From: Bryum argenteum
Taxonomy: Eukaryota > Streptophyta > Bryopsida > Bryales > Bryaceae
Assembly (NCBI GenBank): GCA_037043015.1
Contig: CM073321.1
Span: forward strand, 24,255,510 to 24,319,509
Length of the DNA stretch: 64,000 nt
Reading direction: 5' to 3'
Shown: positions 2,612-25,469 of the stretch, piece by piece
Position numbering within the stretch: the stretch's first letter is position 1
Layout: the number at the start of each line of letters is the position of its first letter
The notes under the pieces: model-generated
Databases searched by the model: none
Told to the model about the DNA's origin: nothing
Seen by the model: the letters and a program-made list of their open reading frames with translations, nothing else
Position numbers and translations under genes: made by a program

Positions 2612-2995
2612 TCATAGGCATTCAATGAGAATGTTTAGATCAGGGTGGCTGTTTTGTAGAGTAGCATGTGTTAGGTGTATTTGTAAAACGTACAAGCAGT
2701 TTATGCAATCTGTAAATATGTATGCGGGTTTGTCTATATACCTAGTTGTGAGGATTTTGAGTGTTTTGTATATGGCCATAAGTTCTGCTCTAAAGATGGT
2801 TTGTAAGCGCGGTAGTCTTTTTGATATTTGTATTTCTGGTTTTTTTGGGTTATAAATGCCATAACCTGTGGTTTTTGGGAGCATATTGCCAGCTGCTGTT
2901 TTTTGTGGTGGTATGAAGGATGTGTCTGTATAATAGCTGTACTCTGGAGGGTATTTGATAGGAAGATGTATGGTGTAATGTGGGAGTGGGAGTGT
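2612..2995 (-). pseudogene. LINE RNase H domain (5' two thirds)
   Basis: The minus strand encodes three ordered RNase H acidic motifs: YYTDTSFIPP (first Asp), IFRAELMAIYKTL (Glu) and YIFTDCINCLYVL (second Asp). The frame stops at 2612, just before the MITE, and the final His/Asp block resumes at 1831. The domain sits C-terminal to the methylase-like region and would remove template RNA during retrotransposition. The upstream methylase frame and this frame are offset, with the switch near 2995, so the copy has at least one frameshift here. Confidence 0.75.
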
Positions 2996-3844: not shown

Positions 3845-3848
3845 ATTT

Positions 3849-3879
3849 AACCTCAATTCCGTTAAAATGGCAATATTCC
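3849..3879 (+). repeat. Left terminal inverted repeat of the giant element
   Basis: Starts AACCTCAATTCCGTTAAAAT and continues to ATTCC at 3879. It matches the reverse complement of 25435-25465 with two mismatches. TAAAATGGC-like copies follow inside (3881-3890, 3933-3942), suggesting subterminal binding motifs. Confidence 0.8.
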
Positions 3880-4600
3880 GGTAAAATGGCAGACTTCTGG
3901 GTGAGAAAATGAGGAAAACATGAAGAGATATACGTAAAATGGGGACATTGTGGGGATAATATGGAAAAAAGGGAGTCATTTTACCAGAATTGTCAAGCAA
4001 ACACCAGAAAACATAGAAGGAATTTGGCCAAAAAGACCAAGATTCAACTGAGATTCGCTGCAAAGCATCGAAAGTTTGTGCAGTATGTACGAATTATCAA
4101 CACATTATTGAGAATCATCACCAAAGTATTGAACTGCAGTCCTGAAACAACACACAGTACTTGAACTTTCAAGTTGTATTTCCTAATATAAGTGGTAGTT
4201 CACCTGCCCTCCTCTATCCTATAATAACACCCTCCATCAGAATTCATGAACCCAACAATGTATTTAAGAATATCGCAAAGATAAGCTGAATTCCAACACA
4301 TTCTTCAGGATCACTTCACCAACAGCATTTCCGAATTGCAGTCCTGAAACATGATTACACAGTACTCGAACTTTCAAGTTCTATTTTTTAATATAAGTGC
4401 TACTACATCTTCCTCGCTTCCTCCTCGAACTACATCTTGTACTCCTACCTACAAGGACGTTGTCTCATAAAACAACTATGAATGATCACGGATGTCGAAG
4501 TGCATTGCTTGCAAAAGATCGTCCGCCCTTGCGAAGAGTGCACTTCAACAATTGGATACAGCACAGGTGTCGAATGTAGGAACCTCCTTATCACTAATCT
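3880..4600. repeat. Left subterminal region with a ~200-bp-spaced direct repeat
   Basis: A block of about 65 bp beginning GAACTGCAGTCCTGAAACA at 4131 is repeated at 4333 (GAATTGCAGTCCTGAAACA), including ACAGTAC-TCGAACTTTCAAGTT and TAATATAAGTG. The same core (GAACTGCAG-TC-GAAA) recurs near the right end at 25152-25170. No gene is recognised. Subterminal repeats at both ends would fit transposase-binding arrays. Confidence 0.5.
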
Positions 4601-5071
4601 ACCCTAAACCATTCTTACCTACCGAGTGATAGATGGAGGGGATCTAAAGAAGGACGCTTTTCGCTTGAGCGACTGCAAAGTCAGAGGATCTGAATGCAAA
4701 TACAATGCAACCTCCTCGGCTCGCAATGAATCTTTATTATCCCAAACTCGTACGAGAGCCTTTTGATTCCACAACCCGTGTTTCAGTTTGCTGGACAAAC
4801 GCAAGAGTGATACAACAGATAAATCTCCTTTTTCCCCTTAGTTTCATTGGTGGGTTCCCCCACATGTGTGTATCGCTTCATTGTTCCCGGCCTCGTTAGT
4901 CCGTACTCCTCGACGAACTTCGCCCCCTTGCTCTTCTTCCCGTAAGTGTTGGGGCAGAAATTCGATGCGTGGAATGCGAAAATAATGCACTTGACAGTGC
5001 CCCTTTCAACTTTCTTTATTTATTTCCCCTTCAATTCATACAATCTACTCCCCACACATGACATGCGGAGA

Positions 5072-5253
5072 GGAATGAAACGAAGGGGAAATAAAAGTAG
5101 AGAGTCGAGGCCATGGTACAGACGAACTATGTTCTGGAGTTATCTCTTGGGATGTATAAAATTCATTGATTCATGCACCGAAAGAGATGACCCAAGAGCA
5201 TTGTGTTTGTTCCATGGCCTCAGCTCTCTACTTATATTCCCCCTTCGCTTCAT
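5072..5253. repeat. ~180-bp foldback (hairpin) copy 1
   Basis: The left arm (GGAATGAAACGAAGGGGAAA, AGTAGAGAGTCGAGGCCATG) pairs with the right arm (CATGGCCTCAGCTCTCTACT, CCCCTTCGCTTCAT) along nearly its whole length, leaving a loop of a few tens of bases. A second copy is at 5993-6174. The size and pairing would suit a foldback transposon or a small-RNA hairpin precursor. Transcription is not shown. Confidence 0.55.
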
Positions 5254-5992
5254 ACCGCTGCGCTTTCATGTTATGAAGTTTCCGATCCCACAACCCGTGT
5301 TTCCGCCTGGTGGACCGACGCAAGAGTGATACCACGGATGAACCTTGTTTGGTGGAAGCCCTTATTCTTTTTCTCCTTAGTTTCATTTGTGGGTTCCTCC
5401 ACATCTGCGTATCGCTTCATCGTTCCCAACCTTGTCGTTCCGTACTCCTCGACGAACTTCGCTCCCCTGCTGTTCTTGCCGTAAGTGTTGAGGCGGAAAT
5501 CGAATTCGTGGAATGCAAAAATAATCCACTTGACAGTGCCACTTTCCACTGTTAATTTTTATTTCCCCTTTAATTCGTACACTCTACTCCCCACACATGA
5601 CCTGCGGAGAGGATTGAAACGAAGGGAAAATAAAATCTTCTTCGGTGCAAAGAGAATCGACACATTGCTCGGAACCCCATTGTAGTTTCGTGCCTGCAAG
5701 CAAATCCTGTTCACATGAACTGATACTGTTCAACCCTTTCGCATTTTTGCTCATTCTCCATCCTGCGTCATTTTTATTTCCCCTTCGTTTCATTGGTGGG
5801 TTCCCCCACATCTGCATCCCTCTTCATCCATCCCGGCCTCGTCAGTCCAAACTCCTTGATGAACTTCGCTCCCCTGCTCTTCTTGCCGTAAGTGTTGCGG
5901 CAGAAATCCAATGTGTGGAATGCAAAAATAATCCACTTCCTATTTTTATTTCCCCTTCGCTTCATACAATCTGCTCTCTACATATGCGGAGA

Positions 5993-6174
5993 GGAATGAA
6001 ACGAAGGGGAAATAAAAGTAGAGAGTCGGGGCCATGGTACAAACGAAATATGTTCTGGACTTATCTCTTGGGATGTATATAATTGAGTGATTCATGCACC
6101 GAAAGAGATGACTCAAGAGCATTGTGTTTGTTCCATGGCCCCAGCTCTCTACTTTTATTCTCCCCTCGCTCCAT
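5993..6174. repeat. ~180-bp foldback (hairpin) copy 2
   Basis: Same organisation as the foldback at 5072-5253. GGGGCCATGGTACAAACG on the left arm pairs with TGTTTGTTCCATGGCCCC on the right arm, and the GAGTTATCTCTT-like inner stem is kept. Several differences from copy 1 occur on both arms (AGG versus GGG before CCATGG, matched by CCT versus CCC), so pairing is preserved. Confidence 0.55.
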
Positions 6175-6349
6175 ACCGCTGCGCATTCATATTATGCAGA
6201 TTCAGTCCTTCATCTAGAGAGCTACTCAATGAGCGAACACTCCATAGTCTCCTTTTTTCCCCTTAGTTTCATTGAATGGCTTTGCGCTCTCCACCTCAGT
6301 AGCCTTGTTTTTTTCCCTGAGTTTCATTCATCTTAAGAGATGAATCAGG

Positions 6350-6977
6350 GGGAAAAGCCAGCGAAAGACATCCACCCTCCAATTGCGCTCCGATATTCGC
6401 AGTGGCGTCAGAAGCATGCGAGTGTACTTGCGAAACATTCTCGTGAGGAAACCTTTAATCACACATCGTCTCTTGAATAATCCTTCTCCAGTAGTCACAA
6501 CATCATCACAAATCTCAACGGCCGCTCGAAAACTGTGCCAAGTTGAAGCGAGGGTCACAGTACTGCTAGTTTAAGGTCGTTCCAGACCCCGGATCTGAAC
6601 GACGGATCGGAACGTGAACCATGAAAATCCCGCGATTGAATAGTAGGTACCGATACGCCAACTACGCGACGTCAGACATGTCTTTTTTTTCCCTTAGTTT
6701 CATTCAAGTCGTGAAACGTCTCTACCTCCTTTGCCAGCGACCGATTAGCTTCGTACCTGAAAAGATATGGCTTCGAGCTTATTCCTGTCACGTTGGCTTC
6801 CCTTGAGGTGCATCACCTTGGTGGAGCACTGCCTGACTGACGAGATACCCATTCCCCTCCCCGGAAGAATTGAGGGAGATAAAGAACGTTGTTACCGCCA
6901 CCGGTCCGTTCCTTTGCCATCTTGTATCCATCATGGAACTAGGACGGCTTCAAACTCTACAAACGAGACGGAGTAAC
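6350..6977. other. No gene recognised
   Basis: Mixed-composition sequence with short open frames on both strands, none resembling a known protein. One more TTTCATT motif lies at about 6690. A degenerate relative of the 92-bp repeat (GGTCGTTCCAGACC) begins near 6575. Confidence 0.4.
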
Positions 6978-7430
6978 CGCAACACCCGAGCTTCTGAACG
7001 ACCGCCGAGAACCATGTATCAAGGTTGAATCTACAAGGGCGTGGTAGTTTAGGGTCGTTCCGGACCGCAACACCCGAGCTTTTGAACGACCGCCGAGAAC
7101 CATGTAAGTCAGCAGAGATGAATGTAAGGGGGGTGCTAGTTTAGGGTCGTCACGGACCGTGGCACCCAAGCTTCTGAAGGACCGTCGAGAACCATGTAAG
7201 TCAGCATGGATGAATCTACCGGGGCGTGCTAGTTTAGGGCCGTCCCGGACCGCAACACCCCAGCTTCTGTACGACCGTCGAGAATCATGAAAGTTAGCAA
7301 GGTTGAATCTACGAGGCCGTGGTAGTTTAGGGTCGTCCCGGACCAAGTCACGGAAGTCCTGAACGACGGTGGAGAACCAAGTTGCTCATAAACTATGACT
7401 CATGCCGGCGTCTTAGTTCAGGGTTGACGC
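6978..7430. repeat. Tandem repeat, ~92-bp unit, about five copies
   Basis: Units start near 6978, 7066, 7158, 7251 and 7344. Each contains a CGCAACACCC-AGCTTCTG block, GACCG(C/T)CGAGAACCATG and TAGTTTAGGG(T/C)CGT-CCGGAC. Lengths vary from 88 to 93 bp and divergence is visible. Open frames in this region come from the repeat and I do not call them genes. Confidence 0.75.
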
Positions 7431-8265
7431 AGGAGCACACGACCCATGATCTGAGCGGCCGCTCAAAAGATTTGACTGTCGAGACTCGGGTATTGGGCGA
7501 CACGGAAGCAATATACAAGCAGAGACGAGCAGAAATGAGACCAATATGCGAAGAAATCCACTCCTCGTGTGCGGGATGGGAGACCAAATTTATTAGAAAT
7601 CACCAAGTCCAACTTCAAGGTAATGCGTTTGGGACTAGACAAACATAGCTGTTCATTATTGATCAACATGAATAGAAGTAAACTCCCAATCACTCCGAAA
7701 TAGTCTGAGTGACCAATCGCTTTCTCTAAGTGATTATTGCTGACAAGTACGGTGCAGAGTAATGTCGCCGCCAAAGACGACGGAGGCCGCAACTAGAGAA
7801 GCCCGGTCGACCTCGTGCGTGCCCAATTGATTACTTCTGGGTGGCGCACCGCCACACAAAGTTCCAGGCTATATCGAGCAGCCGCCACGCCAGAGTGTTT
7901 GTGTGGCCTCCCTCGCTCATGTAAGATCCCGTCCCACGAACTTCTGCACGGCCGTCCGAAACCATGGCAGTCGACCGCACCAATACCCCCTGGAGAAACG
8001 AGGTCAAGACAAAAGTCAGATTCATAGAAGAGAGAACAATGCCGCAGTTATGGCCACCAAAGCTGGAGAGGGGGGGGGGAGGTGTGGGAGGGTTAGGCAA
8101 CTCACCGTCAGCGAGGACCATCCGATTGTTTCGACGTCACGTCTCCATGTGCATCCAAAGCCGACCCGTCATACTCACAGGACCCGACTCCCTCTGACGT
8201 GTCCCGCACGGGCAAACCTCGGAACTTTCGATAGCGAATATAACGACCACCACGTGCTGCAGGCT
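7431..8265. other. No gene recognised between the tandem repeat and the HAD-like gene
   Basis: Contains short frames on both strands and a run of G at 8068-8080. Phrases of the upstream tandem repeat recur (ACGAACTTCTGCACGGCCGTCCGAAACCATG near 7940), so part of this is degraded repeat. Confidence 0.35.
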
Positions 8266-8268
8266 GCA

Positions 8269-9201
8269 TTAGATACGTGGCATCAACTTACTTGCAACCC
8301 TACGGCGAGTAAAATAGTCGTCCCCTGTCTGATAGTGCTTCGACGGAACATATAACGGGTCGGGAATGAGAAGAGACGGGTCCATGTATGTGGCACAAAT
8401 CTTGACCCTGGATTCAAGACCGATGGCTCGAGGCGAACGGTGAGGCCGTTGCCCCGCAAAATCAACCGCCTTCACATACTTTGGAACACTAAGATTCATC
8501 TTCACGATGTGTTTGATCAGTGGTGCCACCGACATCCAGAGCACTGTGTCGGTGTGATTGCCGTCGTAGACGGTTGGAAATATTGCGCTGTAACGGGGGG
8601 TCAAAATGGCGGACTCGAGGCTCGAATCCACGAGCAGTGTGTTGGACGCGTTGAGAGTTATGAAACGGGTGGAGAACATGGGCTGCCCCCACACCGTCTT
8701 GAGGAGCACCTTCAAGCGGAGCTTACCTTCCGGGTGGTCGGCGCGACGAACAAAAGTTCGATCTGCGGTTAAGTTTGGTCGGGTGCTAACGGGGTGACCG
8801 GGGCAAGGATGGAACAGGAGGTGGCAGTCGACAACCGGACAGGGTCGCTCTGACTGCGGCCACGACTCGATGATCACAATGCAGTCCTCTATAGACAAGA
8901 TCTCCCTCGGCTGGGGCAGTCCCCGGAACATGAACTGAACCATTTCCGTCGTGACAGACTTTGGTAATCTAGTCCAGACAGTGACATGACACACACTGGT
9001 GACGAACTTAAGAAATTCTCGCACGCCCGGTCGACAGCTCAGGACGTAGTCCTGAAAGATTGTCCGAGTCTGGGGACTGTAACTGCGAGCGTCGCAGCCG
9101 GATGGCTGCACGCAGTCCTTGGGCGGTTGCCGGATGCAGCCTTTGTCAAGTTCGATCCGGCCGAGGACACCGTCCAGCTCCAGAATGACGCAGTACTTCA
9201 T
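8269..9201 (-). CDS. FCP1/SCP1-like HAD-superfamily protein, probably catalytically altered
   Basis: Starting at the ATG whose complement is 9199-9201 gives about 310 residues beginning MKYCVILELDGVLG; an upstream in-frame ATG at 9321 would add 40. HAD phosphatases of the FCP1/SCP1 type carry DxDGT(L/V) as motif I. Here it reads E-L-D-G, so the nucleophilic first Asp is replaced by Glu. GVREFLKFVTSVCHVTVWTR matches the motif II region of the family (hydrophobic strand, W-S/T), and LLVDSS may be motif III/IV-like. The middle is longer than usual. It lies on the minus strand in the giant element, away from the shared promoter modules. It resembles the HAD exons at 58.8-60.3 kb only in the family motifs. 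Phosphatase activity is doubtful. Confidence 0.6.
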   Translation of the reverse strand: MKYCVILELDGVLGRIELDKGCIRQPPKDCVQPSGCDARSYSPQTRTIFQDYVLSCRPGVREFLKFVTSVCHVTVWTRLPKSVTTEMVQFMFRGLPQPREILSIEDCIVIIESWPQSERPCPVVDCHLLFHPCPGHPVSTRPNLTADRTFVRRADHPEGKLRLKVLLKTVWGQPMFSTRFITLNASNTLLVDSSLESAILTPRYSAIFPTVYDGNHTDTVLWMSVAPLIKHIVKMNLSVPKYVKAVDFAGQRPHRSPRAIGLESRVKICATYMDPSLLIPDPLYVPSKHYQTGDDYFTRRRVASKLMPRI

Positions 9202-9321
9202 GGCCTGGGCCCCGAGTACTGGGTAAGGCGGGTATAAGACCTGCCAATACTCTCCTCGTGTGAAAAGAGGGACAACAGGCTCGAATGCGAAACACAATGA
9301 ATGATTGTAATGACGAATCAA

Positions 9322-9773
9322 ACATGTCGGACAAACCCAGCAGGTGTGACTTATGAATCCGACACGGCGGTCCGGAAATAAGAAGGCACAATGACCTTCG
9401 TGAAATATATGTGGAGGTCAATATTCCAGGAGTGTGAGTCCTGAAACGTGAGGGCTCCAGATTATCAGGAGGGTTAAGTCGAAATGCGATCATCATATTC
9501 CTGATCGACCAACCTAATCTATCGAGCATCGACGGATGCATTGGGACGACGTACTGAAGCCATTGAGGAAGATGGACGTTTCTGCACGGCCGCTCAGAAT
9601 GGTCCGGGCGCAGTGGTCATCCGTATAGATGGCCAGAGAGCCGATGCCCGGGCGGGAAGGCATCGCTAGCATCTGGACGATCGCTTAGATGCCTACAGCC
9701 CTTGGACTGATCTCATCGGCCGACCAGAAATGACGAGGGTAGAAGGTGGAGGGGCATGCGTGCGGAGTGACTA
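9322..9773. other. Upstream region of the HAD-like gene, no other gene seen
   Basis: About 450 bp without a convincing frame. It would hold the minus-strand gene's promoter. No TATA module of the kind seen at the other three genes is visible here. Confidence 0.35.
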
Positions 9774-9785
9774 CACTCCATCATA

Positions 9786-10148
9786 GATAGATAGATAGAA
9801 ACTCCGGTCCCTTTCTAAGGGGCCGGCGTGAATGAAGTGTCCGTTCGTAATGCTAATATCCCGATGGCGACCGGACAAGGGGAAATTGGAACAATACTAC
9901 TTCCCCCTCTTGAGGGTGGACACTATAACTACGCTAGTTTCTAGCCTAGTTACTAGTGCCTTGAGGATACTTGACATAGTATCCCCCCAAAGGACTTTGA
10001 GGTACCCAAACAACAAGGTCCGAGGACCCCCCACAATAGTTGGGTGGACTATAGTGGTGAGCACCACGCCGGCATGGAGAATGGAACCCACGACCTCCTC
10101 AATGGGGGCCATGAGCCCCAACCACCAAGCCAAGGCTTGTGGTGCCTT
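9786..10148 (-). mobile_element. tRNA-derived SINE with 12-bp target duplication
   Basis: The segment is flanked by CACTCCATCATA at 9774-9785 and 10149-10160. On the minus strand the head has a tRNA-like A-box region (TGGCTTGGTGGTTGGGG) and, about 40 bases on, a B-box-like GTGGGTTCCATTCTCC. The 3' end has a stem-loop (ACTCCGGTCCC with GGGGCCGGCGT on the plus strand) and a (TATC)n tail. Blocks of the tail (CATTACGAAC, the GGGGGAAGTAGTATTGTTC-like block) match the 3' end of the LINE at 204-700. It is therefore a non-coding retroelement, and I infer it was moved by that LINE family after or while the giant element existed. The 92-codon open frame across it is incidental. Confidence 0.75.
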
Positions 10149-10160
10149 CACTCCATCATA

Positions 10161-10730
10161 TAGAAGACTAGACACCGTAATTGAAGAATGGAATTCAATG
10201 CTCGAATAGAGGCCTCACCTTTGGGCACTGATACGCAGACGGGGCAAGCGCAGGCGGGTCCTCGACCGGCAAATTGTTTACAAGTGAGACTCCCGGTATA
10301 CCTTTCGACGGAAATTCTAACGTAGTTGCCGGTGCTACCTGGCGAACCTTGGTGCCTAGTCGTTGTGCATTACAGGACGCTATCCCCTTATTCACATCCA
10401 CGCCCTAAAGGAAAGAAACCCCACCAAAGTGAAATTGGAAACTGAGTTGCAGAAAGCGAGGACGACGACAAACCAGACAAAGGCAAATTTTGAAATTATT
10501 TTATATACCTCGATCAAAACTTTACAAAATGGATCCGACAAGCCCAAGGTAAAGAGGGGCGTGTCCATCCTTCGGATGGACTCCCATTTTCTCGGGCCAG
10601 GGTGCCACACTAATGTGGTTGGGAACCCACCAAATCATTCCTATTGACTACGACTAACTCCACGAGTTCTGTCGTAGTGTTCGCCTGCAAGTGACACAAG
10701 AAGAGCCCCCACATCAGAAAACCATGGTCA
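10161..10730. other. No gene recognised
   Basis: Between the SINE and the Pro-rich gene. Contains only short frames without recognisable similarity. Confidence 0.35.
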
Positions 10731-11615
10731 ACCGATTCGCAATACGACTTCTAAACGGAAAGGCTTTCCCTCATCAGGACGGGGAATGGTCACCTTCTCA
10801 TCATCGAGCAGTAGATCATATTGGTTGAGCTGGAGATCATTCGGGTTCGAGTCAAGCGGAAGACTCACTACGGCAGGAGCTGTAGACTCGAGGGCGACTG
10901 TGTCGGCACTGGGATCCGCCACGACTTACTCGATCGTATGAACATCCGGCTCTGCTGTCGGGACGGATGCAGTCACTGGCTCGGTGTTGGGCGGCTGCTC
11001 AGATTCTGGAGCCACGGGTGTGCTCGAGTCGGCGGGCAGAACCAGCGGAGAAGGTATAGGGGTGCTGCAGGTGGGATGGGCCGTCGATTGGTCGGACGTT
11101 GGGATATCTGAGGGAGCAGCGATCTGCGGTTCCTCAGGTGCGGCAACGTTTGGGATGGGGCCGACCATCGCCTGCGTTCCCGCGGAATCTGGCTGCAGAG
11201 GGGGCGGTGGAGGCACACCCGCAGTCGGATATCCAGGGGGCGGGGGGTACATGGCCACAAATAGCGGATAGGGAGGTTGCGGAGGGTACAAGGCCGACGC
11301 CTCTAGGAGCACCGACGCCGGAGGGTGCATGGCTGCAGGTTGCTGATATGAATTGTGCGGAGGGTACATGATTGTCGCATCCGGGAGCACCAGGGCCGGA
11401 GGGTGCATGGCCGTCAAATTCTTAAACGGCGGGGGCGGAGGGTGCATGCTCGACTGCCCCGGAAACACCGGTGGCGGAGGGTGCATGCCTGACTGACTTG
11501 AGTACGTCGGATGCGGGGGCTGCATGCCCAAGCCACCCGGATACGCCCCCGGATGATAAGCGTACTGGGGGTAAGGGCCTGGGTGGTAGGCGTATGGGGC
11601 CTGCCCAGGAAGCAT
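10728..11615 (-). pseudogene. Proline-rich protein gene with one in-frame TAA
   Basis: Two minus-strand open segments in the same frame (11615-10926 and 10925-10728) are separated only by a TAA at 10926-10928, so I read them as one gene of about 295 codons. The first 130 residues are low-complexity Pro/Tyr/Met-rich with repeated MHPPP or MYPPP blocks. The middle is Pro/Ser/Thr/Glu-rich, and the end (NDLQLNQYDLLLDDEKVTIP) is more ordered. I recognise no enzyme domain. It is divergent to the kinase-like gene, with GC island A between them. The TAA could be a decay mutation. There is no clear splice signal around it. Confidence 0.45.
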
Positions 11616-11699
11616 CTACATGTCAACAAGCGACTGCATCATCGACTGCCAGGGTTGTCAAATCGGTAAACATTCGAGGTAAACCTAGTCCGCGGACGT

Positions 11700-12234
11700 A
11701 GTCCGGACTATGTCGACCGGGACCATAGTCCGGACCATGATCCGGGGGGGGGTAAATGCGAGTTACCCCGGTCCCTGGTAACTTATGGGGCCGTTGGATC
11801 ATCCACCTGGCCACATCTCAGCCGTCAAAATTTGATCCTCGGTCTGGCCGACCGACCTCCGGTCGCTCCGTCAGATCGGACGGCGGCCGACCGCAGCAAA
11901 TCCTGGCCGTCGGATCATTTGTAAGCGCTTGCGGGCCGTTAGATCGGGCCTTCGTCCGCATGCCCGACGGCCATCGGATCCGGGCGCGGCCGACGGATCG
12001 GTCGGCCAAGCGGTCAGGCCGTCCGATCGATCGGATCGGTCGGCCAGGCGAGCGGGCCGTCCGCATGCCCGACGGCCGTCGGATCCGGGCGCGGCCGACG
12101 GATCGGTCGGCCAGGCAGCCGCGGCCGACGGATCAGTCGGCCAGACGGATTGGCCGTCGGCCATCCGGGCGGACCGTCCGATCGGTCGGCCAGGCGACGG
12201 ATCGGCCGTCAGATCTAGGGCCGGCCGTCCGCCG
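11700..12234. repeat. GC-rich repeat island A (GGCCGACCGATC-type)
   Basis: Markedly GC-rich compared with the AT-rich sequence after 12.27 kb. It is built of degenerate short units such as CGATCGGTCGGCC and GGCCGACGGATC in both orientations, hence highly palindromic. It ends directly at a TATA box feeding the kinase-like gene. Similar islands lie at 16860-17270, 20365-20580 and 23540-23815. Open frames across it arise from the absence of AT-rich stops and are not called genes. High CpG content in an otherwise AT-rich neighbourhood suggests recent mobility, active homogenisation or protection from methylation decay. Confidence 0.7.
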
Positions 12235-12261
12235 CTATAAAAGGCCGACCGGCCTCCATTT
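12235..12261 (+). promoter_or_regulatory. Core promoter module of the kinase-like gene (TATA + GCCGACCGG)
   Basis: CTATAAAAGGCCGACCGG followed by CCTCCATTT. The TATA box (12236-12242) is 233 bp before the ATG at 12469. The same string order, TATA then (A/G)GCCG(A/T)CCGG then (C/T)-CATTT, occurs at 23817-23842 and on the minus strand at 16868-16893. That points to a shared core promoter rather than chance. Confidence 0.7.
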
Positions 12262-12468
12262 CCTCGACTTCTTTTCTCCATTTCTCACGAAGAGAGGATG
12301 CGGAGTGTCTCTGGCTGGGAATTCCTGTAATTCCTGTCCACTGGCTCCTTGTCTTTTGGAGGAAGGAAGTGACTCATTATACAGGGGGAGTTTTTGTTGT
12401 TTTTTTTTGAAAAGTTTTTGTAAAAACTTACTACACTTTCTTTACATATTTCCTTTTCTGGGATCAAG

Positions 12469-13956
12469 ATGCCAAAGGAGAAGAAGAGGAAGGCTGGTGT
12501 AGCCAACTTGTTTGAGAAGTTCGACGCTCATGAGGTCCCGGGTGACGCTTGTAAGGCATTCTTGATAGAATTTACCGTCAAATTCTATGAGGCCAATGAT
12601 CTTCGAGCATTGGAAAGCAAATATGTGAGATATCAGGAGGAGGGCATCGAGAAGTTCAAGCTCGAAATTAGAGAACTCATGATAGAAGTGCTTCAGCATC
12701 CGAGGTGGGTAGCAGAGACAGAGAAACGGGGGTTCATGTGGTGGATGGATAATAAGGTGAAGGATGCACTCTGGAATCCCAAGGTTGTAATAGCCAAATA
12801 TGGAAGGATGTTTCGGGAGGGTGATGAGGATTTTGTTGACGTGGTGAATAGGGCTGATTGTTTTTCTGCCCAAATGAGGGCATTTTCAAAGAATTCACAC
12901 CGTCGAGGCTCTGGAACATGGTGGCAATCCATTGAGGGATGACAAACTCAAACCATGCGATTGACTCATTTGGTTACCATTCCGGATACAGTCCAAATCA
13001 TACGAGTTGACAACACGAGGTTGAAGGGACGGTATGGTACTATTATCAAAGTTCGCTTTGAAGGTGTTGCAGGCATTAAACCATTTTGGGAATTTGCTGC
13101 AAAAACTTCCATTCACTTGTTGACACGACCGGAGTTGGCAAAATTGGAGCATATGAATGAGTCTATGGCGATAAGGATTAGACACCCTGGTGTGATCCGC
13201 TTTGTGGCCATTCATCCAGTGAAGAATGAAGGCTATGCGTTTTGGTGGAATGGCGGGACTATTTGAGAGATGCTGAACCGCGATATGGATTATGGTGACG
13301 ATGTCTTTGTACATTTGAACTTTGGGAATTACCCCGATGACGAGGTTATTCGGGCTCATCAACTGATTCGATTCCGTAAAAAACGGACAGAGCTTGCTTG
13401 GGCGTTGTTGCATATCATGAACGAGGTCCACAAGAGCCACCACCTCCATAACGATATATCTCTAGATAATATCCTTCTCCACTTCCCTGCTGATGAATCA
13501 CGAGTGTATATCGGAGTATGCGATTGGGGCTTTTCCACAACGGTTCACGAACCAATGCAATCCCTTTATACATTCACAAAACGTGAGGACATGGTGGAGA
13601 CCCTGCGAAAACGTTATTGGGTAGATCCACGAGTGGCGTTCTTGTACAAAGCGGGTGAGGATTTACAGATTATTCTAAAATACTCGATTGCTTCGGAGGA
13701 GTTTGCCACGGCCCGCATAGCACAAAGAATTAATGGGATGACCATGTCTACGGCGTACGAGAGCTTGCAACTTAGAAACCGAAATACTTCGGTATTCTCC
13801 AATCAAGACCTTGCACAAGCTTTCCATCTTTACATCTATAGGATATGCAACGAGAGCCGTGACGGCGCTGGAGGGTTGTCCCATATCATCTCACGCTTTA
13901 GCGAAATGTTTCATTGGCCCACGCCTCATGAGCATTTTCGGACGAATTACGAATAG
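12469..13956 (+). pseudogene. Protein-kinase-fold gene interrupted by two in-frame TGA codons
   Basis: Three open segments (12469-12942, 12955-13266, 13270-13956) lie in one frame, separated by TGA at 12940-12942 and 13264-13266. Together they span 496 codons. The second segment has a Gly-loop-like GRYGTIIKVRF and a possible VAIK-type lysine (EFAAKTS). The third has HHLHNDISLDNILL, a catalytic-loop HND variant of HRD with the usual downstream Asn, and VCDWGFS in place of DFG. The N-terminal 157 residues are not recognised. HND and DWG variants occur in atypical kinases, so activity is possible in an intact copy. Both TGA codons could come from CGA by cytosine deamination, consistent with methylation-driven decay. 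Expression could use the promoter module at 12235. Confidence 0.6.
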
Positions 13957-15160: not shown

Positions 15161-15165
15161 GCATC

Positions 15166-16706: not shown

Positions 16707-16867
16707 CTCCGGGGCCTTGCCCTTGGGTGCACTAGTACGTCGTTCCTCGGCATATTGTTTAGCCACAAGAAAAAAAGCGCAAAAAAAGGGGTCGATTATC
16801 AAGAGGGGACTCGAGGAGCGCATCGACATGGATAACCACAAATGACAGGGCGCACGTGAGTGAAGGG

Positions 16868-16893
16868 AAATGAGCCCCGGTCGGCTATTTATG
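16868..16893 (-). promoter_or_regulatory. Core promoter module of Cys/LWP copy 1
   Basis: The minus strand reads CATAAATAGCCGACCGG followed by GGCTCATTT. The TATA box is about 187 bp before the proposed ATG at 16706. It matches the modules at 12235-12261 and 23817-23842 in order and spacing. Confidence 0.65.
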
Positions 16894-17275
16894 CCGATCG
16901 GGGCGGTCGGCGATTCGTCCGTGGCCCCGGCCGTCCGATCTCGGTCGGCAGCGGTCAATTCCGCCATCGGTCGGGCTGGATCGGTCGGCCAATCCGATGC
17001 CGCAATGGCGACCGATCCAGCCGCCCAATCGGCCGACAGATCCAGGCCGCCCGATCGGCCGACAGATCCAGGCCGCCCGATCGGCCGACAGATCCAGGCC
17101 GCCCGATCGGCCGACAGATCCATCGCGGCTGTCGGATCTGGCCGGTCCATCGCGGCCGACGGATCCGACGGCGGCCGTCTCCGACGGGTCGCGAGCGGCG
17201 GTCGGCTGGCCGCGATCCGTCGTCGATCGCCGGCCTCAAGCGATCGGCCCCCCCCCGCCCGTCGGCAGTGTCTTA
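16894..17275. repeat. GC-rich repeat island B
   Basis: Degenerate GGCCGATCGG and GGCCGACAGATCCAGGCCGC units, the latter in about four near-identical tandem copies at 17025-17130. It sits upstream of Cys/LWP copy 1 on the minus strand, just as islands A and D sit upstream of their genes. The open frames through it follow the 24-bp unit and are not genes. Confidence 0.7.
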
Positions 17276-17279
17276 TTTC

Positions 17280-20130
17280 GGTTTTTTTTTCAAACATGGG
17301 GCATGCTTTCCCATGGCCCACGAAGAAAGGAATTTTTTTAATAGTTTAGGTCTTGGATTATTTTGCAATGATGTTCTATCTTGGAAAAATTAAAATAATA
17401 CATGGTTTTTTTTTGAAGTTTCTCATTCATCCATCGTTGGATTTCAATTTTGTTAGTTCGGTTGTATTTGAATTTAGGTACGTTCGCACTTGGCCTTAGA
17501 GGTGGTGTTAGAAGGTGGTCTTATCTCCTTAGAAGAGTGTGTGTCCACACCTTCGTTCTTTAGTAATTACCAATCCTACATGGATTCCCACATGGCACAC
17601 TCTAAAACTTGGAGGACAAAAAAATATTAGCTAATATTTGGGAGGACAAAACATAGTTGAGCATTAGTAGGCAATTCTTGAGGAAGCACCTCATTTAGAA
17701 AGATTCTCTAGTTTTCACCACTTAGAAGTGGTCTTAGTTAATGAGGCCTTTGAGGGGCCATTATCTAATTGAGCCCATAATTCATGGCCCTTTCCCAAGC
17801 CTCATTGATGACACCTTTCCTAGGAAAAGGGATTTCCCGATTTTGTGGAGGTCTTAAGTTTTAGTGTACGTTCTTAACAAAGGCCAAGTGTGAAGGGACC
17901 TTTTGGAACTTGTTTTTCTACTGGAAACCTTACTTCCATCCAAGATGCGACGAAGATATGCCATTCACTTTTGAGCAAAGGACCTACTTTTCGATCCACG
18001 CCAATACCTATGATAATTGCATTCTCACTTCAAGGTGAATATGATGAAATTTTATGATCTTTGTTGAGTACTAATATGTTATGATCTCGCAATCTATGGG
18101 GCTTCATGAGTCCAAATTTCCTCCACATGACCTAAACCAAGTCTTCTACAATGTTGTACGGTTGAAATCTAGATAGCTAACCTTCATTTTCATCTCTCGC
18201 ACTTTGCAAAACGTGTGTTTCTAGGCTCTAGAGTCTACACCCCCCTTGGGCATTTGAGGTTAAGGGTTACAAACTTACAATGAACATGTATTAGCAAAAA
18301 AATAAACTTTATCATGAACTATAATAGAAGGCTATTGGCATTCATGAAAATATGTGTAGGTATAAAACATATAACATATAAATTCCATTATACATACACG
18401 CATCCCAAATTTAGAACCAAGGATGATAGAATCTAGTGTATCCTAATTTGTGTCTTCCATGTGACCAGTAGGTTTAAAATATTATATTTCTATAAGACTC
18501 TTATGGATATAAATTAACTTATGTAGAGGTAATGTTTAAGCATAGAGAATGCATATAAATAATATAAAATGCGTTTGATCATTACTCCTAACTCCTACAT
18601 TATAATGAATCTTTCTCACATTCATGCTTTGTATTCTTTTGGCTTCCTGTATGAATTATATGTACTTATTGGATTTCATTCTAGCATTTCGTATTCTTAC
18701 AATAGTATTGAGTTCAAACATTCATTATATGTATACTGAGAATATTAAACTCTACAACCTACATACTATATTTAGATTTTTTTTTTAATTCTAAAAGCAA
18801 AATTTCATCATTTACTTTCATCATATACTCTTTAATTTTATTATCATATATGTTTCTTTCAAATTCGTTGAGTCTAACCCACTTGAATTTTATGTAAATG
18901 GACGTGGTTTTATTTATACCGTATATAATAATTACTCATATTTTCTAATATCATTCTTATTCACATTATAATTAGAATACTTCAAAATGACTTATAGGAA
19001 CAAAATAAGTTTTTTTTTTTTTTGCAATAGGATCTAAGATTATATACTCCCCAAACGTAGTGCCTATTTTTAACCAAATGACGCATTTCCAAAATAAGGG
19101 TCCTATATTAAAATGAAGATGCACAATTTACATTCTCAACCATGTAATATTGTAATAGAGTTATAGAGCATGTGTGACCATTTAGTTTCATAACTTTGGT
19201 ATTACCGTGTTAGGCCTTAAGTTGACCACATTTAGACATAAGAATACTCTTAACTTAAAAAACATTGTGCTTAAACAACGCATTCTATTATTGGCTATTT
19301 TTGTTTGACACCCTTGAACTAAGCTAGGAGTATATTTATATTGTAGTACATATAATTGTACTTAATTTGCACATATTCTTTTTAAATAATTATTAGTAGC
19401 ATTTTTATTATTGTATTTATTTGAATAATTATTTATTTACCTCTTACAAAAGTAATAGAAACACGATTCTATTGTTTTCTATTTCGCGATCACAAATAAA
19501 GAGAAGTAAAAAGGGAGACAAATAAATTTTTGAAAATATCCCACTCTATAAGTTCTTAACATATGGCATCAACTTATAAAGATTGGTGTTGGAAATCTTT
19601 GGAAACTCAATTGTGTGTGGAATGAAAATAATGGATTCGTGTATGTATGGTGTAGTATTGAATTATATTTTTAATCGATTACAATGCCACTTTTCTCCAT
19701 CGCATTGTTATTATTTGCAAAATAATCTATTTTTTATTTATTTTTGTTTGAAGATGTTATTGACATGGAATAAATCACGAGTTTATTGCAAGGAATATAT
19801 TGGTAGTATTTTCAACATTCAACATAGGATCTAAGATTATAGACTCCCCAAACTTAGTGCCCATTTTTAACCAAATGTCGCATTTCCAAAATAAGGGTCC
19901 TATATTAAAATGAGGATGCTCAATTTACATTCTCAACCATGCAATATTGTAATAGAGTTATAGTTGTAGGTCATGTGGCCCAAAGTTGAGTCATATAGCC
20001 TCATAGATTACGAGATCATAATATGTTAGTACACAAGAGAATTTACGAAATTTCATCATTTCCAGATTGAAGTGAAAATTCATATAACAAAGCTACTACA
20101 ATTATGAAATCTCCAAGTAAACCATAAACC
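17280..20130. repeat. AT-rich non-coding half of the giant element with internal duplications
   Basis: No gene is recognised. Direct repeats: 19035-19175 with 19822-19965, and 19255-19580 with 21417-21745, both closely similar. Around 17995-18130 there is an inverted relative of 19965-20090 and 23145-23275, all containing GAGATCATAA-ATGTTAGTAC and AATTTCATCAT. These look like old segmental copies inside the element. Confidence 0.6.
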
Positions 20131-20132
20131 TA

Positions 20133-20168
20133 AATCCTAAACCCTAAACCCTAAACCACTAAACCCTA
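20133..20168. repeat. Short plant-type telomere-like run
   Basis: Three to four imperfect CCCTAAA units (CCTAAACCCTAAACCCTAAA). The motif supports a green-plant lineage. It is interstitial and too short to be a telomere. Confidence 0.7.
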
Positions 20169-20364
20169 TCCGTCAATAAAGAATATATAGCATTTCACAA
20201 ATCAACATAGGGTTCCTTTTTTCATTGTGTAATAATCACTGAGAATCCAATAACAGAAATCTGAGAGGGATTAAAATATAAAAAGGATCCTATGAAATTT
20301 TGAAAGATTTCAGTAGTACATTGGAAACTAAGAATTAAAAAAAAAGAAAAAAGAAAAAACCCCA

Positions 20365-20580
20365 AGCGGCCGGCTCGATGGCGATGTACGATCGGTCAAT
20401 CTGGGCCGCTCGTGCCCGGCCGACGGATCTGAGGGACCGCATGACCGGCCTACCGACCGACCAGCGGACAGGGGACGGCCCGGAGATCGACAAGGCGACT
20501 GCGGTCGGCCTTGCGCGACCATGGTCGGCCTTGCGACAAGCCGGTCGACTATCGATCGGTCGGCCCGCGTACCTCCTTCC
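20365..20580. repeat. GC-rich repeat island C (no gene attached)
   Basis: CGATCGGTCGGCC-type units as in islands A, B and D, lying in AT-rich sequence. It is followed by a pyrimidine-rich stretch and CTATATTTAG near 20660, but no open frame resembling the other genes follows. It may be a promoter island whose gene has been lost. Confidence 0.6.
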
Positions 20581-20589
20581 CCCTCCTCT

Positions 20590-22130
20590 TCTTGCCTCTC
20601 CCAAAAAACCCCGTTTCCACAACTTCTCTCACTTCCCCGCATTGCATATTTGCATTTCTATATTTAGCGTCTCTCGTCCACGTGGCGTCTAAATCAGGGT
20701 AGGGAATGTTCTGACAAGGGAATGTCGGGAAGATTTCTTTGTCGGAAACAAGAATGTTTTATGACAAAGATACTCTAGGCTCTAAATAATTCTATAATAA
20801 GGGACTCTTTACAAGAGGAGTCAAGGCCAACATATCTCCCATGCCAATTCCCCCATTTGTGAAGGTGTTGGGAGTTGGTGCCCATTTCTAGAAGGAAAAC
20901 GAAGGTTATGGGGCCAATTCTTATTATTAGCTAGAGTCCATGTTTTTGATTTGTTCTCATTGATTTTATGTTTTAAAAATATTCCTTCTTAATTTGAATC
21001 AAGAAAACGCTTTTAGGCCATGAATTGACATTCATTTCTTGAATCTCCCAACTTTTGTCAAAAATTGATCCATTCTCACAACGAGATGTTCTCATGTATT
21101 GGCCCCATTAATGGCTTGGCCCCTATTGTGCACTTTGAGGTGGCCCTAAATCCTCTCATATCACGTTCGAGACTTTTTAGCTATTCCTTGATGAGAGTAT
21201 ACTTATGTCTAACATTGGAGAGATCTAAGTATATATTAAATGTAGGTGAGCATGTGTGAGTATCTTGTCTTCATAACTTTGGTATTACCGTATTAGTCAA
21301 TATTTAAACTTCCTATTTAGCCCTTAAGTCATCCACATTTTATGGTCTATATTATTTGATGTGCATTTAGAAATAACTCCATCGTTGTGTATCTAATTTA
21401 GTAGTACTTATTATTAAAAACATTGTGCTTAAACAACTAATTCTATTATTGGCTATTTTTGTTGGACACCCTTGAACTAAGCTAAGAGTATATTTATATC
21501 CTAGTACATATAATTGTACTTAATTTGCACATATTCTCTTTAAATAATTATTTGTAGCATTTTTCTTAGTGTATTTATTTGGGTAATTATTTATTTACCT
21601 CTTACAAAGGTAATAGAAATACAGTTCTATTGTTTTCTATTTTGTGATCATAAATTAAAAGAAGTAAAAAGCGTTACAAATAAACTTATGAAAATATCGC
21701 ACCCTATAAGTTTTTAACATATGGCAATAATGGCATCAACTTATTAAGTTATAATCATATTTGATCTTGTACACGTATAGTACTTCGATTTTATGTTAAA
21801 AGAAGTTGATTATTCTTATATTAGAAACTTCGATTGATTGATTAGGGAATAGAATATTTTGAATAGCCATCGCTTTTTCATTTAGAGTATATTGTGGATA
21901 AAATCACTTGTGGATAGGATTTAAGGTTTATGGTCTAGGATTTATTAATTTTTCCTGGCTAATTTTTTTATTTTTCCATATCCAATAGATTATTTTACAA
22001 ACCTTTGTAGGCTAATTCCTTTATTATATATTGGACATGTTATAGTCTCATCCCAGATGCTGGTTCTGAACTCGGGTCCCCTCTGAAATGAAAAGAATTA
22101 AATAAATAATATATATACACTATACGATAA
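20590..22130. repeat. AT-rich non-coding sequence, second copy of the 330-bp duplication
   Basis: No gene recognised. 21417-21745 duplicates 19255-19580 (shared TGTGCTTAAACAAC, ACACCCTTGAACTAAGCTA, CTTACAAA-GTAATAGAAA). The short open frame at 21065-21259 has no recognisable similarity. Confidence 0.5.
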
Positions 22131-22325
22131 AGATAGAGCAGTTTTTGCTAAAAACATATTTAGAGGTAAAGTCACTCTACATAAATAGCGGTTTTCGCTA
22201 AAAACATAGTTAGAGGTAAAGTCACTCTACATAAATAGCGATTTCAGGCTAAAAATATATTTAGAGGTAAACTAGTTCTATATAAATAGTGGTTCTCTTT
22301 AAATACATATTTAGAGGTAAAGCAA
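22130..22325. repeat. Tandem repeat, ~60-bp unit, about four copies
   Basis: Each unit contains GCTAAAAACATA(T/G)TTAGAGGTAAA and CTACATAAATAGCG-type sequence. The copies diverge toward the right. Confidence 0.7.
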
Positions 22326-23535
22326 ATCAATTCTACTTTGTGTGCTAGAACTATAAATTAAAAAGTAAATAGATAAATATACATACTATACATGTATATA
22401 GTAAATAATATATGTATTATATATTCAACCATAATACAATACAATTATAATATATATTATATATAATAAATACCTTCATATACATATTCCACTTTGAAAA
22501 TAGAAAGTACATACATAAATATACATATTCTAATTTATTAATACATAGTATATACATAAATATACACATCCTACTTTAAATATAAATAGTTTAAATACAT
22601 AAAGAGTTAGATTTCTCTAATTGATTTATTGATAAGATTTATTTTTAGAAATAGGAAAGTAAAAGACTAGAGAAAGACTTTTAGGTGGATATATAAACTC
22701 GTGGGTAAGAAGGTAGAGACTATTTTTTGTTGTGAGTTCTTTGGTTATATTTATATACAATTGTTATATTCGATATGAAAATTGGAGTTCTTATCTATCT
22801 ATCTTGTTGAAGAACAATAATTACCAGTTTATAATTATCCTATTAGTATAATAAATTCGTTCCAAGGGAGACGGTTAAGTAGGAACTTTTAAGCAACTAG
22901 GTCTAATTTTTAAAAAAAACCTAAAAAAAACCTAAAAAAAACAACTTCAAATTGGTAGAGAAAGTTTACTCAATTTGGGAAGAAAGTTTTATCCACATAT
23001 CTTTTTTCTTGAGATCTATCTCACGCTTATTTACATGCGCTTCTAACGATGGTAATTGTATTTTCTAATTCAAAATCACTCAAAAGATAGAATTTGGTAC
23101 AGAGGGCGTTTATTTAGTGTCCATTGAGGATGCCCTAATACACATACTGTTGTAAGTCATGTGGATAAAAGTTTGATTCATAAAGCCTCATAGATTGCGA
23201 GATGATAAGGTATTAGTACACAAGAGAATTTACGAAATTTCATCATTTTCAGATTGAAGTGAAATTCATAACAAGGTGGTTTTGAGGGGTTTTGGCACTT
23301 TTTACGGCCACTTTATATTAGAGGCCATTTGAAGTTGGGCCCATTTGGAGCTGAGCCCACTTGGACTTGAAGTGGGCCTTAACTTTAGCTCTACTTTACA
23401 AAGTGGGTCATAGAGTGGATCTTGCAATATAAAGTCCTAATGCCCACTTCGAGGGCCCAAATTTAAAATTTTAGAGAGAGATAGATTCTCATTGGTTGAT
23501 GCCTAGGGTTTGTAAACGGGCCCAAGAAATTTTTG
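22326..23535. other. AT-rich non-coding sequence with a possible LINE/SINE tail
   Basis: No gene seen. At about 22770-22803 the plus strand has AAATTGGAGTTCTTATCTATC, the same GGAGTTCTTATC-type end as the LINE and SINE tails, probably a strongly truncated copy. 23145-23275 is a third copy of the GAGAT-ATAA/AATTTCATCAT repeat. Confidence 0.4.
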
Positions 23536-23539
23536 GGTT

Positions 23540-23815
23540 AGGGTTTAGAGCGGCGGCCGGCGGCCGGTCCGCCAGGCCCGACGTGCGAAGGTTCGGCGGT
23601 CAGGGTCGGTCGGCCAGGCCCGGGCGGTCCGGGCGATCGGTCGGCCGGTCCCGAATGGCCCGACGGCCGGTTCGGGGGATTGGTCGGCAGGTCCGGGGGA
23701 TCGGTCGACCGGTCCCGAATTGCCCGATGGCCGGTCCAGCGATCGGTCGGCCGGTCCGGGGCTTCCGACGGCCAGGCCCGGTCGGCGGTTCGGTCGGCCG
23801 GTCCGGCATGAGGGC
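23540..23815. repeat. GC-rich repeat island D
   Basis: Units such as CGGTCGGCCGGTCC and GATCGGTCGGCC, closely related to islands A-C. It ends at a TATA box that precedes Cys/LWP copy 2, so island, TATA and gene are ordered as for the kinase-like gene. Confidence 0.7.
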
Positions 23816-23816
23816 A

Positions 23817-23842
23817 CTATAAAGGGCCGTCCGGCTTCATTT
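23817..23842 (+). promoter_or_regulatory. Core promoter module of Cys/LWP copy 2
   Basis: CTATAAAGGGCCGTCCGG then CTTCATTT. The TATA box is 180 bp before the ATG at 23998. Same order of elements as at 12235-12261 and 16868-16893. Confidence 0.7.
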
Positions 23843-23997
23843 TGCACCACTTTCTCTCCTCATGGTAACCCAATTCGAATGTTCTCCAGTTGCTAAGGCG
23901 CCTGCTGCATTCTAGTTGGAGAGGAGAAGGGGGTCGGTTTTTTTTCTTATTTCTTGCGACTACTTCGTCCCGTGGATCTTTCGGTGATACTTGCACA

Positions 23998-24525
23998 ATG
24001 ACGTCGACTGAGAACGTGAACACGAGTTTGGAGGTGGAGAATTCGATGATATCAGCAGAGGCTCCTAAGAAGAGGAATAAACAAAAAGGTGCAACTCATG
24101 GGCTGAATTGGGAGATTTTAGAGGATGAAGACATTAAAGCGGAACGCGGTTGGGAACTGGAGGTGACGGAGTATTGGACCGCTCAAATTTGCAAGAAATA
24201 TGTGAAGATGTTTCACATTGGCAAACTTTGGCCTAAAGAATGTCATACAGTTCATACCAGGAACTTTTCTTGCAACCCGGCAACATGCAAGGATGATCAC
24301 TTTATCCACCGTGCAGAGGAAGTATGGCGGGCCTTGTTCGGGGATCGTGCCAAAACAAAAGGGTACTTTTGTTACCAATTGTTGGCAATGGTGTATGCTG
24401 AGTTGATATCGCAGCGGAAGATAAATTGGAGCCCGTACCAAACTAATACTCAACATCCGCGTCGAATTGAGAGGAAGCAGAAGCATGCAAATACAATTTG
24501 CTTTGGACAACTTACGCCGAATTGA
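23998..24525 (+). CDS. Cys/LWP-motif protein (family copy 2), 175 residues
   Basis: Starts at ATG 23998, the second Met of the longer open frame, chosen because it lies 180 bp after the TATA box in a normal leader. The N-terminus is Lys/Asn-rich (KKRNKQKG). Residues 55-100 hold WTAQICKKYVKMFHIGKLWP and then CNPATCKDDHFIHR, a possible Cys/His cluster. Residues 115-145 hold LLAMVYAELISQRKINWS. Both cores are shared with copy 1 at 15-16.7 kb, but this copy lacks the long repetitive tail and ends 34 residues later, so it may be truncated. No known family recognised. It could be an accessory or DNA-binding factor of the giant element; that is inference. Confidence 0.55.
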   Translation: MTSTENVNTSLEVENSMISAEAPKKRNKQKGATHGLNWEILEDEDIKAERGWELEVTEYWTAQICKKYVKMFHIGKLWPKECHTVHTRNFSCNPATCKDDHFIHRAEEVWRALFGDRAKTKGYFCYQLLAMVYAELISQRKINWSPYQTNTQHPRRIERKQKHANTICFGQLTPN

Positions 24526-25150
24526 GGTTCACGAGAGTCTCGGCATGTGAAGAATATGAGCATTTCTAAATGGTAGGGAAGTTTGAGGTAGCTGCCCAGA
24601 AAGACGTGTTGACTAGTCCAAGTTAGGACAAGACTGTGGACATCATTGGAGAAAACTTCAAGCAAGTTTGAGAAATCCTTAAAAATTGTCGGCAAAGTGT
24701 GGTAAGAAGTGAGTGAATATACCAAGAAGAGATTGTGTGAGGTACATTCCGCACGGTTATATGAGTAAGTTATAGCAATGATACACCACGTTATCTAATG
24801 CGCATACCAAAAGACGGAAGCAACGTGTGAACATAACGTAGTGTACCATAGAAGGTTTATATTCCACATTTCCGGATGTAGTAGATTACAATCATGCTTA
24901 ATGTAAACGTTAGGTAAACAGTAAACATTTCAGTCCTGCCGGTAACATGACAGGAGGTTTTGTATGTAATAAGTAAAATGAAGATGAATATTACAAAGCT
25001 TGTTACTAGTGTTTGACTCTCAATGAATGTAATGTACAACACAATGGTCCAATAGTTACTTTCACTATTGGAAACCAAGTCTTGTGTATTCCCATGTCCC
25101 ATGTGCAGGCATCACTTCCCACATTGAAATTCTTCTCTATCACATGGTTT
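24526..25150. other. No gene recognised
   Basis: AT-rich sequence between Cys/LWP copy 2 and the right subterminal repeats. Only short frames. Confidence 0.35.
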
Positions 25151-25151
25151 C

Positions 25152-25334
25152 TGAACTGCAGCTCAGAAAGTTATAGTGTGACATTACAGAGTCCCTGTGA
25201 TATTACAGAGTCTCTGTGATATTATAGAATCCGTGTGATAATATGAAGTCCATGTGATATTACAAAGTCCGTGTGATATTATGAAGTCCAACTTAGATTA
25301 CAAAGTCCTAGTGATATTACAGAGTACACAAAGC
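25152..25334. repeat. Right subterminal tandem repeat, ~20-bp unit
   Basis: About eight units of GATATTACAGAGTCCCTGT type, alternating TTACAGAGTC/TTATGAAGTC with (C/G)TGTGATA. It lies 100-290 bp from the right terminal repeat. An array of short subterminal repeats is typical of transposase-binding regions of TIR elements. The left end instead has two 65-bp repeats sharing the GAACTGCAG core found at 25152. Confidence 0.65.
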
Positions 25335-25434
25335 ATTCCCAACTAGCTCCTACTGTGCCATTTTGCAAGAATATGTCACCACAATGCGACGTTTTCGCAA
25401 AAACTCAATTTTGCCCCTTATCAAAATGGCACAA

Positions 25435-25465
25435 GGAATGTTCCCATTTTAACGGAATTGAGGTT
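25435..25465 (-). repeat. Right terminal inverted repeat of the giant element
   Basis: Reverse complement begins AACCTCAATTCCGTTAAAAT and matches the left terminal repeat in 29 of 31 positions. It is followed by ATTT, the same four bases that precede the left repeat. Confidence 0.8.
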
Positions 25466-25469
25466 ATTT

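Follow-up and report, generated by a model that had tools for sequence, protein, structure and literature searches.

What is a 21.6-kb insertion with terminal inverted repeats (TIRs) and no recognised transposase, and how did it come to split a long interspersed nuclear element (LINE)? The question is raised by a 64,000-nucleotide stretch of the genome of the moss Bryum argenteum (C1:24255510-24319509; hereafter the window), which we compared with the 258.8 Mb of that genome in 25 contigs. The insert proves to be genuine, though disrupted, and comes from a family of plant DNA transposons tens of kilobases long, whose other members encode an un-named transposase together with a conserved group of accessory genes. 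Very probably it is one copy of a giant cut-and-paste TIR family which has here lost the gene for a protein with the Pfam domain DUF7869. The borders of the element are as follows.

3849-25465, plus strand: giant TIR element, an internally replaced copy of 21,617 bp
3845-3848: left target-site duplication (TSD), ATTT; empty LINE sites have a single ATTT
3849-3879, plus strand: left 31-bp TIR; AAAATGGC occurs again at element position 35
25435-25465, minus strand: right 31-bp TIR, paired with 3849-3879
25466-25469: right TSD, ATTT, matching the left one

The two TIRs are identical at 29 of 31 positions, and such an inverted pair is expected by chance about 2e-6 times per 64-kb window, assuming equal base frequencies. 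The borders read GGATTT/AACCTC on the left and GAGGTT/ATTTGT on the right, giving the TSD ATTT. The split LINE lies on the minus strand, with its reverse transcriptase domain (RVT_1) at 27086-27784 and its RNase_H domain, slightly below the curated cut-off, at 2615-3283. Once the insert is removed, 'STIQ/ILNETAHYS' is read in a single frame across the junction, in a LINE copy that otherwise contains stops and frameshifts. Joined flanks (300 bp each, with one ATTT) served as a query for empty sites, and 40 of 145 candidates were scored; in these 40 match rows the junction is spanned by at least 30 LINE copies at 92-95% identity and at least 8 at 80%, the remaining two rows being the window's own LINE halves. 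All eight LINE loci fetched align without gaps across the junction and carry a single ATTT. Because LINE copies read through the empty site with one ATTT, the element is defined as 3849-25465 with a 4-bp TSD, and the same empty site rules out a chance pairing of the ends. The inverted ends, the ATTT duplication, the split LINE and the continuous ORF2 reading described in the initial annotation are all confirmed, and the comparison that it proposed with an empty LINE copy found the site uninterrupted in the at least 30 closer copies. The LINE itself also contains a PCIF1_WW domain (PF12237, 1.3e-10) at 2850-3653 on the minus strand, between the reverse transcriptase and RNase H; this is, to our knowledge, an unusual domain for a LINE, and no such case turned up in a literature search.

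The ends belong to a large family whose 31-bp TIR starts AACCTCAATTCCGTTAAAATGGC. Its 22-bp terminus occurs 3,869 times genome-wide (1919+1950, with at most 3 mismatches), against 2+1 occurrences of a reversed control. The first 30 loci fetched contained 17 distinct inverted pairs of 216-513 bp, the size of miniature inverted-repeat transposable elements (MITEs), and 13 of these are flanked by identical 4-bp sequences that are diverse from pair to pair. The terminal kilobases of the window element are also found elsewhere: at least 18 other places match the left 1 kb over its full length at 81-93% identity (40 of 579 candidates scored), and at least 16 match the first 976 bases or more of the right 1 kb, with four further places nearly so (40 of 866 candidates scored). 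Fourteen left-right giant pairs could be formed, including the window copy and leaving aside ends without a partner. Identical 4-bp flanks are present at ten of them (ATTT, TTGG, TTGA, ACAA, CCAC, GTAG, CTAA, AAGG, TTAG and TAGG) and absent at four (C5:22106036-22130300, C5:21959732-22007930, C2:34439012-34497136 and C1:28588170-28619895). The TSD-bearing pairs span 21.6-52 kb, and two of the relatives are 29.2 kb each (C5:13757805-13787019 and C8:1094639-1123833, with TSDs TTGG and TTGA). The search for inverted end pairs suggested by the initial annotation found them at spacings of 21.6-52 kb, each flanked by the same 4 bp on both sides, and its claim of a giant TIR element is upheld by the TSD, the empty site and the paired siblings.

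Target sites are not AT-restricted, since CCAC, TTGG, GTAG, AAGG, GGGA and CATG occur among the TSDs of giant and MITE-size pairs. A TA or TTAA target was rejected because the TSDs vary over all 4 bp and TTAA is absent among them. On C10 and C4 a single right end is accompanied by two left ends whose outer flanks are nearly identical, and the spans of these two giants become 55 and 65 kb, respectively, if the outer left end is used. The inner C10 copy has homopolymer losses within its end sequence and looks like an assembly duplication; with these left ends doubled, the numbers of places given here are not numbers of independent insertions. Three giant copies (L047, L049 and L069, on C4, C10 and C7) have many small gaps or homopolymer losses, and two of them have outer flanks repeated beside a better copy, so that they are probable assembly duplications.

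The enzyme that the window copy lacks is found in its relatives, immediately inside the right arm.

24487-25465, plus strand: right arm common to sibling giants, 979 bp
24488-24550, plus strand: 3' stump of the DUF7869 gene, 20 codons (QIQFALDNLRRIEVHESLGM) and a stop, matching the end of the siblings' gene

Matches to the right end at other loci all stop at or before right-arm base 979 (window position 24487), and the 1.5 kb that lies inside the arm in the siblings is common to the 19 other right-end loci fetched (L052 compared with 18 others, of which L058 matched in two pieces and L065 over only about 395 bp). Pfam identified DUF7869 in both loci scanned (L061, 2e-42; L053, 8.5e-39). A profile built from 59 proteins (alignment A1) matches all 19 right-end loci; the match covers the catalytic part in 18, and in L065 the C-terminal part only. 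The same profile has no match at E <= 0.001 in six frames of the window element, and none of the 48 open reading frames (ORFs) of at least 100 codons in that element matches a transposase family in Pfam. In the one sibling read, the gene consists of two ORFs, a C-terminal DUF7869 ORF of 673 codons preceded by one of 350 codons. The protein is modelled as an RNase-H-fold DDE/D transposase with conserved D148, D273 and D313/D315. The genome has at least 151 DUF7869 matches (150 of 1811 candidates scored), and 14 control genomes gave none. The protein database yielded 165 homologues; among the 120 listed, six carry species names, all of them of mosses (Ceratodon purpureus and Physcomitrium patens). 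DUF7869 is not named in the open-access literature searched, nor are five of its motif strings printed there. The nearest sibling, C1:38324754-38377006, still has the DUF7869 region, interrupted by stops. The window copy shares the TIRs and arms, the accessory gene described below and the 4-bp TSD of its family, and has a 20-codon stump where an intact DUF7869 gene would be. The statement that no transposase is recognisable was correct for this copy. The suggestion that the element is either non-autonomous or moved by an unrecognised enzyme holds in that the copy is non-autonomous and DUF7869 is not a generally recognised enzyme, but relatives do encode the transposase and this copy has lost it.

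Between the arms, much of the window copy is not its own.

3849-9785, plus strand: left arm common to sibling giants, a repeated 5' part followed by the NIF-like gene
8269-9201, minus strand: NIF/FCP1-like HAD gene (PF03031); ATG at 9201, stop at 8269-8271, frame open upstream to 9417
9786-10149: nested repeat between direct repeats ACTCCATCATA (9775-9785 and 10150-10160)
10142-11649, plus strand: giant-specific sequence with a Pro-rich ORF at 10929-11615 (minus strand), matched in 22 other places
11650-24486: foreign insert or replacement, beginning CAGGGTTGTC, with kinase-like ORFs at 12424-13953 (plus strand) and other repeats

The repeat at 9786-10149 is found in 17 other places at 97-99% identity and in one at 89%, over the part searched. 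At least 22 other places match 10142-11649, two of them only partly, and in all 22 the homology ends at or before 11649 (40 of 2816 candidates scored). Two copies elsewhere of the element starting with CAGGGTTGTC begin within one base of this point (at 11649 and 11650). By eye this nested element is hAT-like, and no matching right end was found for it in the window. Its kinase-like ORFs match PF00069 at 1e-4, under the curated cut-off, and, with 40 of 314 candidates scored, the region 12300-14000 is matched in at least 39 other places, at 93-99% identity. Because the 22 giant places end by 11649 and the sequence that follows is a repeat with at least 39 places, 11650-24486 is largely not the element's own, and most of the apparent 'cargo' appears from these comparisons to be nested transposons, including a young kinase-like element. 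Of the element itself there remain the left arm, which includes the NIF-like gene, the sequence as far as 11649, and the right arm of 979 bp. The view that it carries its own cargo genes consequently fails for much of that cargo, and the initial inventory, right about the 21.6-kb element, had overlooked the nested elements (9786-10149 and from 11650 onward) as well as a second giant described below. The 21.6-kb arrangement was also rejected as the ancestral form, since siblings differ inside.

Several further observations concern this interior. Repeat-rich units at 11650-17268 and 23500-24486 contain GC-rich stretches (GATCGGTCGGCC), TATA-like boxes and ORFs, and part of these units is the high-copy kinase-like nested element. 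The ORF at 23869-24522 (plus strand) shares 34% identity with 16690-16379 (minus strand). A short interstitial run of TAAACCC, the plant telomere-type repeat, lies at 20118-20168.

The NIF-like gene is a regular part of the left arm, whose sharing was searched with 3849-4848 and 8000-9700 and, in fetched loci, to about 2.5 kb inside. Matches to most of the length of 8000-9700 are found in 22 other places at 84-95% identity, and the gene lies about 4.0-4.9 kb from the left end wherever that end is known. HAD phosphatases have a nucleophilic D in the motif DxDx(T/V). Motif I of the window protein instead reads ELDGV, and because this E in place of the nucleophilic D is invariant in six NIF-like sequences, the protein may be a pseudo-enzyme. 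Only five homologues, none of them named, were found among 5.8 billion proteins. Compared over 342 codons with the copy in C1:28588170-28619895, which belongs to a divergent family, the window frame gives a nonsynonymous divergence (dN) of 0.36, a synonymous divergence (dS) of 1.77 and a ratio (omega) of 0.20; the low omega reports past selection, because four stops interrupt the aligned frame of that copy.

Two regions known from siblings are both absent from the window copy. One, in a sibling's middle (L079:100-2500), has matches of more than 1 kb in 23 other places, two of which are probably halves of one copy; the other, a zinc-finger-like gene region (L079:7800-9800), is matched over most of the query by 13 others. 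A second set of places matches the NIF-like gene and L079:100-2500 weakly, at 66-71%. It includes C1:11280937-11309542 (28.6 kb, TSD TTAG), C1:35135735-35164449 (28.7 kb, TSD TAGG), where the match is to the NIF-like gene alone, and C1:28588170-28619895 (no TSD), which also matches DUF7869.

A second giant begins 9 kb from the window element and repeats its layout.

34726-60703, minus strand: second giant element, 25,978 bp; 28-bp TIR (24/28 identical); TSD ACAT at 34722-34725 and 60704-60707
35587-37506, minus strand: its DUF7869 transposase, C-terminal ORF, 639 aa
37820-39163, minus strand: its N-terminal transposase ORF, homologous (28% identity, 8e-29) to the 350-codon ORF upstream of DUF7869 in the sibling of the first element
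58876-59502, plus strand: NIF-like gene 1 (1.7e-14; motif DLNGF)
59587-60303, plus strand: NIF-like gene 2 (7.5e-9; motif SVNGL)

A TIR search between two stretches gave two 19-bp windows with 18 matches, one of them with an identical 4-bp flank; no such window arose in eight mononucleotide shuffles. The transposase is 35% identical to that of the first family, and the NIF-like genes again lie by the end opposite to it and on the opposite strand. The link between the NIF-like genes of the two giants consists of a shared Pfam family and weak matches to a divergent-family copy (L089), the protein of the first element having no match to the NIF-like genes of the second at E 0.001. Within the second giant there is also a 6.1-kb array of a 21-bp tandem repeat (43805-49949, about 292 copies), whose long ORFs are probably repeat artefacts, and a 459-aa ORF (53433-54812, plus strand) in which a stretch, IIGGQHCVAAHK, is ParB-like by eye only; searches of Pfam, NCBIfam and PDB gave no support for this likeness. 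Immediately outside lies a retrotransposon gag/Ty3 capsid-like ORF (61289-62608, plus strand).

Members of the first family have 31-bp TIRs and a 4-bp TSD, with a NIF-like gene near the left end, other genes in the interior and DUF7869 by the right end. We suggest that the DUF7869 protein would cut at the TIRs by means of D148, D273 and D313 or D315 of its RNase-H fold, would join the ends to target cuts staggered by 4 bp, and may also move the MITEs that have the same ends. The window copy probably entered the LINE as a fuller element and was probably gutted later, over 11650-24486, by nested insertion and deletion, so that it would now be mobile in trans only. This order of events is favoured because the nested part reaches 99% identity with copies elsewhere, against 92-97% between the giant arms and those of their nearest sibling, C1:38324754-38377006.

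That same comparison counts against the 21.6-kb arrangement being itself the mobile unit, a non-autonomous giant with acquired cargo moved in trans by the DUF7869 protein of its siblings, which we consider unlikely. In its favour, intact TIRs and a perfect TSD enclose the entire unit, and reports from Ectocarpus describe giants that lack a transposase and giants that stayed mobile after nested insertions (PMC12477816). However, neither internal junction recurs among the copies scored: none of the 22 matches passes 11649, and no other right-end match passes base 979. It is far less probable still, to the point of being negligible, that the two ends belong to separate MITE-size elements at a coincidental spacing. 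The abundance of the 22-bp end, on average about one per 67 kb, speaks for it, but the ATTT TSD and the LINE empty site fall exactly at both ends, each arm carries about 1 kb of giant-specific sequence, one being a left and the other a right arm in the correct orientation, and paired siblings occur at other sites. The loss of DUF7869 from a fuller giant remains the preferred reading.

Placement in a superfamily is less firm. By TSD size and DDD-type features the family is probably Sola1. The Sola superfamily was reportedly defined, by Bao and colleagues in 2009, by a 4-bp TSD and a DDD-type transposase. Sola1 shares the 4-bp TSD seen here (10 of 14 giant and 13 of 17 MITE-size pairs) and its RNase-H-fold transposase is likewise of the DDD type modelled for DUF7869. 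The moss occurrence agrees as well, a Sola1 entry for Physcomitrella being present in the table of a plant transposable element review (PMC9033089). The contrary view, that DUF7869 elements form a separate DDE/D superfamily prone to gigantism, draws on the absence of the DUF7869 name and its motif strings from the literature searched and on TSDs (CCAC, TTGG, GTAG, CATG) unlike the AWWT target given for amoebozoan Sola2 (PMC3627910); set against the DDD-type motif, the 4-bp TSD and the moss entry, we regard it as doubtful.

NIF/HAD-like genes with degenerate motifs at one end and a transposase at the other are found in families only about 35% identical in transposase. Tentatively, DUF7869 may mark a lineage of giant transposons in land plants (mosses), perhaps even a superfamily of its own, with a long-conserved layout in which the extra proteins would aid transposition or counter silencing and would not be captured cargo. 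Algae and fungi offer precedents for the size and the accessory genes as such; the literature searched on giant TIR elements of plants, mosses and algae showed no comparable conserved module in a land plant. The results would give a mobile-element role to an un-named Pfam domain and connect it with thousands of short elements that share the ends of the giants. They extend giant multi-gene TIR transposons beyond algae and fungi to a moss genome, offer an example of a transposase-less giant arising through nested insertion and deletion, and, through the conserved pseudo-phosphatase-like genes, make the cause of DNA-transposon gigantism directly testable.

Among known systems, Polintons (Mavericks) are giant multi-gene TIR elements, as here. 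They duplicate 6 bp of target, KDZ elements 8 bp, and MuDR elements and Pack-MULEs (of the Mutator-like class) 8-11 bp, compared with 4 bp and an empty site here, and membership of all three groups was rejected on TSD size; usual Pack-MULEs are also much shorter. Neither PolB nor a retroviral-type integrase was found in the 48 ORFs of the window element or in eight ORFs from the central 10 kb of a sibling. In Pfam (E <= 0.1) DUF7869 is the sole match of the sibling enzyme region, and lists of similar structures are compatible with a KDZ transposase. The TTAA target of Kolobok and piggyBac does not occur among the TSDs. The KDZ/EnSpm giants of algae and fungi are nonetheless similar in size (KDZ up to 30.3 kb), accessory genes and nested transposable elements (PMC12477816). 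Pack-MULEs are plant non-autonomous TIR elements with foreign sequence moved in trans (PMC6431247), as is proposed here, but they carry gene fragments where the window copy has mostly nested transposable elements. The Sola2-Fanzor chimeras of social amoebae likewise have one near-identical arm, an otherwise wholly different sequence and a 4-bp TSD, and differ in their Fanzor genes and AT-rich targets, the AWWT of Sola2 being at odds with CCAC, TTGG, GTAG, AAGG, GGGA and CATG (PMC3627910). Also close to the present family is the giant Sola1-1_Ec32 of Ectocarpus, where a 21.5-kb Sola-1 family is described whose accessory gene and transposase lie on opposite strands; accessory genes in Ectocarpus are ParB-like and a DNA methyltransferase, those here NIF-like and zinc-finger-like, and the Ectocarpus giants also include nested transposable elements and copies without transposase (PMC12477816).

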